Assembly (NCBI RefSeq): GCF_001618425.1
Contig: NZ_BDCU01000016.1
Span: forward strand, 62,001-126,000
Direction of reading: 5' to 3'
Source of the DNA: Nocardia fusca NBRC 14340
Lineage (GTDB): Bacteria; Actinomycetota; Actinomycetes; Mycobacteriales; Mycobacteriaceae
DNA length: 64,000 nt
Below are positions 59,506 through 63,430 of this stretch, piece by piece (position 1 is the first letter of the stretch; each line of letters begins with the position of its first letter). Made by a program: the position numbers and the translations under genes. Under the pieces are notes generated by a model, which saw only the letters and a list, made by a program, of their open reading frames with translations, did not search any database and had not been told where the DNA came from.

Positions 59506-60780
59506 CTACGGGAGGATCAGCGGTGGGGCGGGCCGGAAGGTGACCGGAAGGGCGGTCAAGGCCCGGTGGAAAGGTCCGGGACGCCACCGCAAGTCCGTGA
59601 CCGGACACGCGAGTTCCATATCGGGGAGTGCGTCCAGGAGATGGTCGATTGCGTCTTGGACGATGAGGTAGGCGATCGACCGGGCGGGGCAGCTGTGCGG
59701 TCCCGTGCTCCAGGCCAGGTGGGAGCGGTTTCCGGTCCGGTCGCGACCGGAGACGGCGGGGTCGGTGTTCGCGGCGGTGAGGCTGATCAGCACCGGCCGG
59801 TGCGCCGGTAGCCAGGTATCGCCGACCAGCACGGGGGTTCGGGGGTAGGTGGTGCAGAAGTTGGCCATCGGTGGGTCGTTGAACAGTACGTCGTCGAGTG
59901 CGTCGCGGGTGGAGAGGCTGCCGCTGATCAGGCCGCCGCCGAAGCGGTCGTCGGTGAGCATGAGTAGGACCGTGTTGGTGATCAGGTTGGACTGGGCTTC
60001 GCCGCCTGCTCCGTAGAAGCTCATCAGTTGCGCGAGGACTTCGGTGTCGTCGAGCCGGTGGGGGTGGGCGAGCAGGCGTGAGGTGGCGTCGTCGCCGGGG
60101 TGGGCGCGCTTGGCCGCGATCAGTTCACTCAGCGCGGTATGTACCAGCCGCATCCCCTCCGTGGCACCGACGGTATCGAAGCGGGCGGCCATCCCCGCCG
60201 TCACACGCTCCCCTATCTCGGGCGCACAGCCCATGATCCGGTTCAGGACCGCGAAAACCAGTGGGCGGGCGTAGTCGGTGACCAGGTCCGCGGTCCCGGA
60301 CCGGCAGAAGCCGTTGATCAGCGAGGTCGCCGACCGTGCCACAGTGGACCGCAATTCGTGGCCGTCGACGGCGTCGATACTGCTTTTCGAGGCTTTTCGG
60401 TAGCGGTCGTGGGCGACCCCGGTGCTGTACCGCGCGGCCGGGAGCCAGCGCATCATCGGCAATACCGGTGAGTCGACGGGCACGGTGTCCTGCCAGGTGC
60501 GGGGGTCGGCGGGGAAATGCTCGGAATCGTGCAGGATGCGTACAGCTGTCTCGTATCCGAGCACCAGCGTGGCCGGTACTCCGGGCGCGAGTTCGACCGG
60601 TGCCAGGTCGCCGAATCGCTGTCGCATGGTGCGGTACGCGTGGTGCGGGTCGGCGGCGAATTCCGGGGTGTACAGGGGCACGCGCGGTCCGGAGGTGTCC
60701 GACGGCGAGACATGCGTGACCGGGCAGCGACCTGCCGGTCCCGTGGCGGGGAACGAGATCGAAGGTGGTGATGAAGACAT
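59506..60780 (-). CDS. cytochrome P450 lacking the ExxR motif (CYP157-like)
   Basis: A 424-residue soluble P450. The heme-ligand region reads HLAWSTGPHSCPARSIAYLI, with Cys at 364, where Trp replaces the usual Phe and Pro follows the Cys in place of Gly. The I-helix AGGEAQSN (about 258-265) lacks the oxygen-activating Thr. The K-helix ExxR is replaced by D297-V-L-F300 in RDALDDVLFNDPP. Loss of ExxR is the known peculiarity of the Streptomyces CYP157 family; assignment to CYP157 is inference. ATG 60780 is the start. It is downstream of an FAD monooxygenase and a methyltransferase on the same strand. Whether it is catalytic is open. Confidence 0.88.
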   Translation of the reverse strand: MSSSPPSISFPATGPAGRCPVTHVSPSDTSGPRVPLYTPEFAADPHHAYRTMRQRFGDLAPVELAPGVPATLVLGYETAVRILHDSEHFPADPRTWQDTVPVDSPVLPMMRWLPAARYSTGVAHDRYRKASKSSIDAVDGHELRSTVARSATSLINGFCRSGTADLVTDYARPLVFAVLNRIMGCAPEIGERVTAGMAARFDTVGATEGMRLVHTALSELIAAKRAHPGDDATSRLLAHPHRLDDTEVLAQLMSFYGAGGEAQSNLITNTVLLMLTDDRFGGGLISGSLSTRDALDDVLFNDPPMANFCTTYPRTPVLVGDTWLPAHRPVLISLTAANTDPAVSGRDRTGNRSHLAWSTGPHSCPARSIAYLIVQDAIDHLLDALPDMELACPVTDLRWRPGPFHRALTALPVTFRPAPPLILP

Positions 60781-60878
60781 GGCGGTTTCTTTCAGAGATG
60801 TCGGGGGCCCGGGCGCGGAACCGCTGCCCGGGCATGCTGACGACCGGCCCGCGTCCCTGGGCAGGGAGCCGAGGTGTG

Positions 60879-62483
60879 TCAGATCAAGCCGAGATCGCTC
60901 GAGAACGAGGCCAGCAAAGCGTCCTGTTCGCTCAACCGGCAGCGTCGGCTGATGTAGCCGTCGGGCCGGATCAGGCACAGGGCGTCGCCACCGGGTGTGC
61001 CGTACAGGGTGTGGACCCGGCGGCTGTCAGCGGTGAGGGCACCGTCCGGGGCGGGGGCGTGGTGGCCGGGTGGCGTGATGACAACCGGTTCGATCCGAGT
61101 CCTGAACAACTGGCGGGTACGGGTTATCAGCTTCGAGATGTCCGCGGCCGCCGGGGGTTCGCGATGGAGCACCAGCAGGGTGTACCCGGGGTGCTGTAGC
61201 AGCTGATGCAACCGCAGGTGCGGGCTGATTTCGACGTCGGGGGCCCGGCCGCCGGCGGCCGGGCCGTCCAACGGCCGGTGTGGCGATGTCGCGGTGCCGG
61301 CCGCGCTCTCGTAGCGGTAGGCGATGCCGGAGATCCGGGCCACCGCGCGTTCGGTGAAGCCGGGCGCGCAGGCGATGGCCAGGCGCTCGGCGATCGGGAT
61401 GCCGTGGTTCATCAGCACCGAATGCAGTTCATGGGTGCCCGCGATGACCTGTTCGGCGATCGGTCGCCGCTCCGCCTCATAGGTATCGAGCAGGGTTTCG
61501 GCGGCTTCGCCCTTCACCACCGCCGCCAGCTTCCAGCCGAGGTTGAACGCATCCTGCATCGACGTGTTCTTCCCCTGCCCGCCCGCCGGCGAACGCTCGT
61601 GACCGGCATCCCCACACACCAGGACCCGGCCGTTGCGGTATCGCGAGGTAATTCGTCGCCGCGTCCGGAACACCGACGTCCACTCCGGCTCCCCCACCTC
61701 GATAGTGCCCGCGAAATGCGCATCGAGGACTTTCCCGAACGCCTCCACGGAGGTGTCGGCGTCGCGGCCGTCACTCTTCTCGCTGATCAGGACGCGCCAC
61801 GCACCGCCCGGCAGCGCGGTGGTCAACAGCATGTGGTCCAGCGCGATCCGGTAATCGACACCGCCGACCTCGACCGCGCAACCCTGCAACCGCACGTCCA
61901 TCATCCGCATCACCGTGTCGGCGTATTCGGCGCGGCTGACTTCGGCGCCCAGAGAGGCGGCGACGGTACCGTGCACGCCATCGCAGCCGATCAGCCAATC
62001 CGGCCACACCGTCTCCATCGCGCCGGTGACCGTATCCCGCAACGTGGCGGTCACCTCGCCGTCGTGATGGACGGTGGCCGAGACCAGTTCGGTGTGCCAG
62101 TCGATGACCCCACCCAACCTCGTAAAGCAGCGGCGCAGGATTTCCTCGGTGTCGCGCTGGCTGATGATCCGGTAATACGGGTAGTGGCTGTCGAGGCCGG
62201 TGAAATCCAGCCGCACCTTCTCCTCGGCGCCGGTGAAGTGGTAGTCCATCCACTCCCCGCGCAACCCTCGGTCCTGGAACTCCTCGACCACCCCGGCCAG
62301 CTCCAACAGCTCGAGAGTACGAGCGTGCACGGTGAACGACCGTGATGTCGTGACCGGTGCGCAGAGTTTGTCGATCACACGGCAGTCCACGCCGCGGCGC
62401 AATAATTCGATACCGAGGGTCAGGCCGCTCGGGCCCGCGCCGACGATCAGGACACCGAGATGAGAAGCAGACGAAAATGGCAT
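60879..62483 (-). CDS. FAD-dependent aromatic hydroxylase
   Basis: A 534-residue group A flavoprotein monooxygenase. The first FAD motif is VLIVGAGPSGLTLGIELLRR (about 10-29), the second FAD region is RVLVCGDAGHERSPAGGQGK (about 290-309) followed by MQDAFNLGWKLAAVVKG, and the C-terminal domain (about 410-530) is thioredoxin-like, as in phenol- and polyketide-hydroxylases. The family uses NADPH and O2 to hydroxylate aromatic rings. ATG 62483 is chosen at the family start. It lies between the methyltransferase and P450 genes on the same strand, with 80- and 98-bp gaps, suggesting a tailoring group for an aromatic compound. No core biosynthetic enzyme is in the window. Confidence 0.92.
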   Translation of the reverse strand: MPFSSASHLGVLIVGAGPSGLTLGIELLRRGVDCRVIDKLCAPVTTSRSFTVHARTLELLELAGVVEEFQDRGLRGEWMDYHFTGAEEKVRLDFTGLDSHYPYYRIISQRDTEEILRRCFTRLGGVIDWHTELVSATVHHDGEVTATLRDTVTGAMETVWPDWLIGCDGVHGTVAASLGAEVSRAEYADTVMRMMDVRLQGCAVEVGGVDYRIALDHMLLTTALPGGAWRVLISEKSDGRDADTSVEAFGKVLDAHFAGTIEVGEPEWTSVFRTRRRITSRYRNGRVLVCGDAGHERSPAGGQGKNTSMQDAFNLGWKLAAVVKGEAAETLLDTYEAERRPIAEQVIAGTHELHSVLMNHGIPIAERLAIACAPGFTERAVARISGIAYRYESAAGTATSPHRPLDGPAAGGRAPDVEISPHLRLHQLLQHPGYTLLVLHREPPAAADISKLITRTRQLFRTRIEPVVITPPGHHAPAPDGALTADSRRVHTLYGTPGGDALCLIRPDGYISRRCRLSEQDALLASFSSDLGLI

Positions 62484-62563
62484 GGCGCAACGCCCTCCAA
62501 TAGCTCGAAATGGAGAAGGAATCGCGTGTCCCCCTGCGACACGCATGCGAAACGCTGTCGCGG

Positions 62564-63430
62564 CTACCGCAGCGACAGCACAGAAGTGGGTTTGTAGGCG
62601 AGCCCGCCCAGCATCAGAGCCTCCGGCGGACGAGCCTGCAAGGCCGGACCGGACGGCCACCAGTCATCCAGGCGTACCAAACCCGGCTCCAGTAATTTCA
62701 ACCCACAGAAATAGGCGCAGATCTGTTCACGGGTTCGATACCAGCCCGACCCCAAACCACACTCGACGAACGCTCGCTGCAACCGCACCGCGAGACGGTG
62801 GAGTTCCGGATCTTCTTCGGCGGGATCCCAGAAATGGCTGATCGCCACATAGGACCCCCGGGGAAGCCGCTCGATGTATTCGCGCATCACCCCGGCCGGA
62901 TCGAGAGCAGCATGCAGGTGGTGCAGCAGCCCGCACACGATCAGGCCGACCGGCCGATCCAGCTCGAGGTAGCCGAGCACCTCTCTGTTCTCCAGAAGCG
63001 TGCCCTTTTCCAGCAGATCGCCGCATACGAAATGGGTAGATGCGTTTTGTGCCAACATCGCTCGACCATGCGCAGCGCACAGAGGGTCGTTGTCTACGTA
63101 GACGACGCGGACTCTCCGATTTCCCAGCTGGGCGACCTCATGGGTGTTGACCACAGTCGGAAGCCCGGCGCCAACATCCAGGAATTGATCGATCCCGGCC
63201 TGCCCGGCCAGGTAGCGCACAACTCGATACAGCCAGTCCCGGTTCATCCGTGATACTTCGCGCTGCTGCGGTGCGACCGCCACGACTCGTTCAAAAGCCG
63301 CGCGATCGACGTCGTAGTTGTCTTTACCGCCCAAGCTGTAGTCGTAGACCCGGGCGACACTCGCTCGAGTTGTATCCGCGCCGACCGGGGCACGAGCGCC
63401 CGTCTCAGGTACGCGGATGGTTCGGGACAT
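62564..63430 (-). CDS. SAM-dependent methyltransferase (DUF574 / Methyltransf_19)
   Basis: A 288-residue protein of the actinobacterial DUF574 type. Diagnostic segments are SVARVYDYSLGGKDNYDVDR (about 25-44), the SAM motif I QFLDVGAGLPTVVNTHE (about 82-98) and VVYVDNDPLCAAHGRAML (motif II, about 109-126). The end carries WWPSGP. The family fold is a Rossmann methyltransferase; substrates are mostly unknown. ATG 63430. It is the first gene of the minus-strand run with the FAD monooxygenase and the P450, and is divergent from an XRE regulator at 63651. Confidence 0.93.
   Translation of the reverse strand: MSRTIRVPETGARAPVGADTTRASVARVYDYSLGGKDNYDVDRAAFERVVAVAPQQREVSRMNRDWLYRVVRYLAGQAGIDQFLDVGAGLPTVVNTHEVAQLGNRRVRVVYVDNDPLCAAHGRAMLAQNASTHFVCGDLLEKGTLLENREVLGYLELDRPVGLIVCGLLHHLHAALDPAGVMREYIERLPRGSYVAISHFWDPAEEDPELHRLAVRLQRAFVECGLGSGWYRTREQICAYFCGLKLLEPGLVRLDDWWPSGPALQARPPEALMLGGLAYKPTSVLSLR

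Follow-up and report, generated by a model that had tools for sequence, protein, structure and literature searches.

What does a cytochrome P450 do when its K-helix lacks the ExxR motif, whose arginine is stabilizing and nearly universal in P450s, and when it stands in line with a flavin-dependent hydroxylase and a methyltransferase? The question is raised by a locus in a 64,000-nucleotide stretch of the Nocardia fusca NBRC 14340 genome (contig NZ_BDCU01000016.1, positions 62,001 to 126,000; this whole stretch is called the window, and its features are given in its own numbering), where a sequence-only reading had noticed such a P450 and proposed that it takes part in a tailoring operon. The usual setting of ExxR-less P450s, the conservon, offers no clue to a substrate; a copy tied into a cassette of two or three genes with a flavin hydroxylase offers a small, testable pathway. 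We found that the absence of ExxR is a family trait of a CYP157-like lineage, and we consider it somewhat more probable than its negation that the window P450 is a folded heme-thiolate protein of this lineage, a former conservon copy now in a flavin cassette, which oxidizes after the hydroxylase has acted.

Absence of ExxR as a family trait

The P450 gene (59506..60780, reverse strand) encodes 424 amino acids (aa) from an ATG at 60780, an alternative 490-aa GTG form extending into the flavin gene. Its ExxR site reads D297-V298-L299-F300, as had been claimed, and lies within predicted helix 291–301, where a search for an intact ExxR found none. Translation likewise bore out an I-helix without threonine (A258-G259-G260-E261-A262, the acid being retained) and a Cys loop W-S-T-G-P-H-S-C364-P-A, in which CxG has changed to CxA around the heme cysteine. 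Thus where a canonical P450 monooxygenase has ExxR, I-helix Thr and Cys-x-Gly, the window protein has DVLF, E-A and CPA.

We aligned the window copy with 74 relatives (alignment A1, 75 rows, 21 of them from the N. fusca genome and the remainder from other Nocardia and two other actinobacterial families); these were drawn from 91 references, of which 17 close relatives or repeats were omitted, and L107 was excluded because its match contains a stop. Position 300 was F in 48 rows, W in 20, Y in 4, A in 2 and L in 1, but R in none; among the 21 N. fusca copies it was F in 17, Y in 1, A in 2 and W in 1. The aspartate at position 297 is a minor variant (8/75), E occupying that position in 57/75. 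At the I-helix threonine site the family had P (61), A (11), F (2) or L (1), and Thr in 0/75. Conservation was high at other functional positions, with C364 and G360 in 75/75, R126 and R128 in 74 each, E261 in 72 and H124 in 71. The meander, which in P450s supplies the third member of the E-R-R triad, is by this alignment usually shortened too in the ExxR-less members: the spacing from D340 to the Cys was 24 residues in 57/75 (range 23 to 31, two members being at 30–31), as against 29–31 in 8/8 canonical P450 loci of the same genome (values are the Cys index, one above the distance). An isolated mutation, chance or a sequencing error at the ExxR site is ruled out, because position 300 is never R among the 75 aligned members and comparison with the N. 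rhamnosiphila orthologue gives a ratio of nonsynonymous to synonymous change (dN/dS) of 0.24.

The window protein is nonetheless predicted to fold as a complete P450. An AlphaFold2 model on A1, without heme, had a predicted local distance difference test score of 88.7 and a predicted template modeling (TM) score of 0.88, its N-terminus being of low confidence. Among solved structures CYP154C5 of Nocardia farcinica matches best (TM 0.82/0.85), at 24% identity. CYP154s carry both ExxR and the threonine. By the titles of their structure entries, they bind steroids.

Placement in the CYP157-like lineage

A missing ExxR was the subject of a 2006 paper that reportedly used expressed CYP157C1. That paper is cited in PMC3599690, which gives EVLW as the motif of CYP157A (Streptomyces virginiae, S. 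avermitilis) and EQSLW as that of CYP157C1. Outside Nocardia, the closest relatives of the window P450 (L096–L099, genus taken to be Streptomyces, 54–56% identity) had EVLF, AVLY or TVLY, and the next (L100–L121, 43–53%) had an EVLW-type motif in all aligned rows but one; more distant matches exist at 32–41%. Because the second of these groups mostly carries the published CYP157A motif, the suggestion of a CYP157-type enzyme is sound. CYP157 proteins lack the K-helix Arg, usually with W in its place; the aligned members lack it too (F in 48 rows, W in 20), and they retain the heme Cys (C364, 75/75). Full membership would call for more than 40% identity to named CYP157 proteins and for clustering among them. 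We call the window P450 CYP157-like, a placement made through its EVLW homologues (43–53% identity) rather than through officially named CYP157 proteins; the EVLW copy in a conservon of the N. fusca genome is at 33–37%.

With the CYP157s of Streptomyces the window lineage shares the aromatic residue in place of the K-helix Arg, the heme Cys and conservon-linked relatives. It differs in that Nocardia copies mostly have EVLF (the window copy DVLF), that some Nocardia genomes have far more copies, and that the window copy lies outside any conservon, beside a flavin hydroxylase. CvnE, the accessory P450 of conservons, was taken here to be encoded no more than four genes from the CvnA kinase of a conservon. 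A paralogue on N. fusca contig C17 shares this placement, being next in line to HATPase, Robl_LC7, DUF742 and GTP-binding genes, but the window copy does not: its contig (C16) had no DUF742 match above cut-off and one sub-threshold match 85 kb off.

The flavin hydroxylase–P450 cassette

All three genes of the window locus are on the reverse strand, as had been noted, with gaps of 98 bases (P450/hydroxylase) and 80 bases (hydroxylase/methyltransferase). The 534-aa hydroxylase (60879..62483, GGAGGG before its ATG) qualifies as a flavin adenine dinucleotide (FAD)-dependent aromatic-ring hydroxylase by FAD_binding_3 (PF01494, 275 bits against a gathering score of 22), with Rng_hyd_C below its cut-off, and by GAGPSG, CDG and GDAGH, which we take to be the GxGxxG-type, DG and GD motifs of FAD hydroxylases. 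It matched solved rifampin monooxygenase (E 9e–45) and PgaE (E 6e–42), and among the matches listed it fell below the cut-off of 25/25 NCBIfam models (57 matched). The 288-aa S-adenosylmethionine methyltransferase (62564..63430, GGAGG before its ATG) belongs to Methyltransf_19/DUF574 (PF04672, 250.6 bits against a gathering score of 26) and is related to the solved DUF574 protein 3giw, for which PMC2954221 reports an unidentified phenylalanine-like ligand and suggests a small-molecule methyltransferase.

We searched 148 Nocardia genomes for the hydroxylase (E 1e–60) and found it in 23, in 33 match rows, 30 of them at at least 40% identity, of which 28 loci were fetched. A CYP157-like P450 lay directly downstream on the same strand in 15 of these 28 loci (in 12 genomes) and upstream in one; chance adjacency was about 0.001 per locus, a rough estimate from 21 copies in 8.04 Mb. 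A Methyltransf_19 gene lay upstream in 8/28, the P450 being present in every one, and where hydroxylase identity was at least 69% the P450 was found in 8/8 loci and the methyltransferase in 5/8. The expectation that the three genes stay together therefore stood for the hydroxylase and P450 but not for the methyltransferase, which is an optional member of the cassette; a strict three-gene operon is ruled out by its absence from 20/28 loci. Flanking genes differ at several cassette sites, so the cassette appears to move or duplicate as a unit; N. rhamnosiphila has two cassettes. Among 394 genomes sampled across the class (four of them Nocardia, including the window's own; top three candidates per genome scored) the hydroxylase at E 1e–75 was found in the window genome only, not in the other three Nocardia or the 390 others, and thus no cassette was found outside Nocardia in this sample.

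Two hydroxylase loci had unusual features. One genome has a second hydroxylase copy about 14 kb from its cassette (G030:C55:59355–60581), an apparent relic with two in-frame TGA codons. Elsewhere a flavin hydroxylase adjoins a 5'-open open reading frame (ORF; L230:3039–4358) with a short Methyltransf_19 piece (profile 71–93) followed by a LuxR/GerE-type regulator, possibly a fusion or a relic.

Phylogeny and selection

Maximum-likelihood analysis of the 75 P450s placed the 17 flavin-linked rows (15 distinct loci, two sequences each being present in duplicate) in one clade with support 95/77. Within this clade a 15-row set had support 97/82, and flavin linkage was a single change in 94% of 200 bootstrap trees. 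The sister of this clade is the N. fusca copy on contig C22, beside a Trp-halogenase-like gene. The next clade holds the conservon copy of contig C17 and copies from other Nocardia; as on C17, a canonical P450 comes after many of these.

Over the 15 loci, the pairwise identities of the hydroxylases tracked those of the P450s closely (r 0.937, 105 pairs; Mantel 0/2000). Between the window and the orthologous N. rhamnosiphila locus dN/dS was 0.24 for the P450, 0.17 for the hydroxylase and 0.20 for the methyltransferase; between a second N. fusca cassette (contig C40) and that of genome G555 the values were 0.17, 0.26 and 0.17. The hydroxylase and P450 diverge in step, and all three proteins are under purifying selection.

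Copy number and detection

The window P450 had seemed a lone oddity, which it is not: at E 1e–35 with every candidate scored, the N. fusca genome has 21 CYP157-like matches and N. rhamnosiphila (G031) has 23. Eight further Nocardia (one or two contigs) had 11, 3, 6, 3, 6, 6, 19 and 12 (the 12 including fragments; most Nocardia counts include one distant copy at 36–39%), and eight genomes taken to be Streptomyces had 2 to 5 each. An earlier count of 13–19 copies in every Nocardia was discarded, its list at E 0.001 having included canonical P450s with about 18 candidates per genome scored. Only 4 of the 21 N. fusca copies lie in conservons (three on contig C17 and the one EVLW copy on C33), and 17 lie outside. 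A fragment of the family on contig C42 (L022, C42:30306–30698) covers residues 25–157 only.

The window P450 had no Pfam match at E 0.01, and the five NCBIfam P450 models that it matched were all far below cut-off. A search of its genome with PF00067 returned 43 match rows, or about 39 genes once rows in the same frame are joined, and none overlapped any of the 21 CYP157-like copies. Across the family this blindness is incomplete, PF00067 at E 0.001 matching 27/75 members of A1. Moreover, several plasmid-borne close relatives carry the label 'cytochrome P450' in NCBI annotation, so that not all of them escape routine annotation, and InterPro-based surveys had already listed CYP157s in Streptomyces. 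These counts suggest that surveys of Nocardia using PF00067 alone, or discarding ExxR-less proteins, would miss much: 21 genes beside about 39 detected. The P450 type is thus already known; within the open-licence literature, as far as its searched part extends and with subscription journals outside its scope, we found no account of CYP157-type P450s in Nocardia, where their expansion and the flavin cassette appear undescribed.

Role of the cassette P450

The cassette P450 most likely follows the hydroxylase in the pathway, as a heme-thiolate oxidase or peroxygenase. Conservation of the heme ligand, of the C-helix residues and of the I-helix acid speaks for heme-thiolate function; at the 15 flavin-linked loci H124, R126, R128, G360, C364 and F300 were all 15/15, and E261 was 14/15. 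An enzymatic role is favored for the window copy by the absence of a conservon partner, and is supported by biosynthetic neighbors of some N. fusca paralogues (a nonribosomal peptide synthetase (NRPS), a Trp-halogenase-like gene, an aromatic hydroxylase). From these patterns we infer heme binding, catalysis, step order, substrate and conservon origin alike. A conservon-linked P450 copy in the CvnE position would have duplicated within Nocardia and then left the conservon, and the duplicate would have become linked once to a flavin aromatic hydroxylase. From then on, inheritance, duplication and movement would have acted on the pair as one cassette, with the optional DUF574 methyltransferase upstream. 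The flavin enzyme would hydroxylate a small aromatic substrate, the P450 would perform a second oxidation or a coupling on the hydroxylated product, and the methyltransferase, when present, would cap a hydroxyl or amine; the phenylalanine-like ligand of 3giw would fit such capping of an aromatic product.

Several observations weigh against this account. The P450 has neither the oxygen-activating Thr nor the K-helix Arg, its meander is shortened, and the loss of the Thr makes standard oxygen activation less certain; P450s without it may use substrate-assisted activation, coupling chemistry or peroxide. Genes for a ferredoxin or a reductase are absent from the cassette. The I-helix acid is lost in one of the 15 linked copies (E261V), and 12 of the 28 hydroxylase loci had no P450 of this type in their 1.5-kb flanks, so that the hydroxylase apparently can do without it. 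Support for the flavin clade by the Shimodaira–Hasegawa-like approximate likelihood ratio test (77) is slightly below the tool's mark of 80. Finally, the lineage's best-known setting is a signaling operon.

This last point leads to the strongest alternative, which we regard as possible but well behind: that the P450 is a CvnE-like sensor or modulator, binding a small molecule or gas at its heme and controlling the hydroxylase or a regulator. Among the neighboring clades of the flavin clade is that of the C17 copy, which comes right behind a conservon GTP-binding gene, and Thr is absent at the I-helix site in 75/75. PMC13343842, which studied a CvnF, proposes that CvnE P450s and CvnF GAF proteins, found alongside CvnA kinases devoid of sensory domains, serve as their sensory inputs or modulators, neither accessory type having been biochemically assessed before. 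The tailoring operon of the sequence-only reading is a reasonable inference, in which the P450 would be catalytic, but this proposal of sensory or modulating P450s stands against it. On the other side, the window contig has no DUF742 (CvnC) match within 85 kb, the partner is an enzyme gene, and most copies in the genome lie outside conservons.

We think it unlikely that the P450 helps the hydroxylase without catalysis of its own, as a P450-shaped chaperone or activator analogous to the P450-derived glycosyltransferase activators. Close pairing and strong co-divergence with the hydroxylase would fit, as would degenerate P450 motifs and a weak match to the activator profile TIGR04515, which reaches 73/75 members at E 1e–5. 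However, the window P450 scores 58 bits against a cut-off of 343, and a pentalenolactone synthase model scores equally high and matches 75/75. The cassette has no glycosyltransferase, and the heme Cys, which those activators have lost, is invariant in the CYP157-like members. Membership among the activators is ruled out by score and by this Cys.

We give a slightly lower chance still to a bolder version, in which Nocardia has turned a conservon signaling P450 into a second P450 system without the E-R-R triad or Thr, and the cassette P450 works as a peroxygenase on hydrogen peroxide supplied by the hydroxylase; this would account at once for the absence of the Thr and of redox-partner genes. 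That the P450 is a drifting or dead copy hitch-hiking with the hydroxylase is very improbable and largely refuted, for although DVLF deviates even from the family's EVLF and a truncated relative is known (the C42 fragment), the P450 dN/dS values of the two comparisons (0.24 and 0.17) indicate purifying selection and the 15 linked loci have no stop in the aligned part and keep their heme residues.

Neighbors of other copies and minor features

Contig C17 (L089:5256–11169) has a conservon, then an ExxF P450, a canonical P450, two ExxF P450s and a 195-aa remnant whose match to PF00067 is confined to the C-terminal part of the profile. On contig C18 (C18:381660; L070:7628–16001) a CYP157-like P450 lies about 1.1 kb after a co-directional NRPS ORF with two condensation domains, two AMP-binding domains and one thioesterase domain. 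The C22 copy (L060:4652–8442) is downstream of the Trp-halogenase-like flavoprotein, with one 197-aa gene without Pfam match between them, and a copy on contig C50 is near another aromatic hydroxylase. APH-type kinases occur near three N. fusca copies, directly adjoining two (L064, L067) and one gene away on the opposite strand at the third (L066).

Within the window, a scan for terminator-like sites gave four in the region against a shuffle mean of 1.6 (standard deviation 1.3). Among them, the methyltransferase–hydroxylase gap contains a hairpin (62523..62545, reverse strand) with a short T-rich tail, a possible attenuator. The methyltransferase gene is adjoined by a divergent gene for a helix-turn-helix regulator with a weak TPR match, running from 63651 past the window end (L092:13652–14821); the same regulator is found at the N. 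rhamnosiphila locus (L122:3927–5096) and is a candidate regulator of the cassette.

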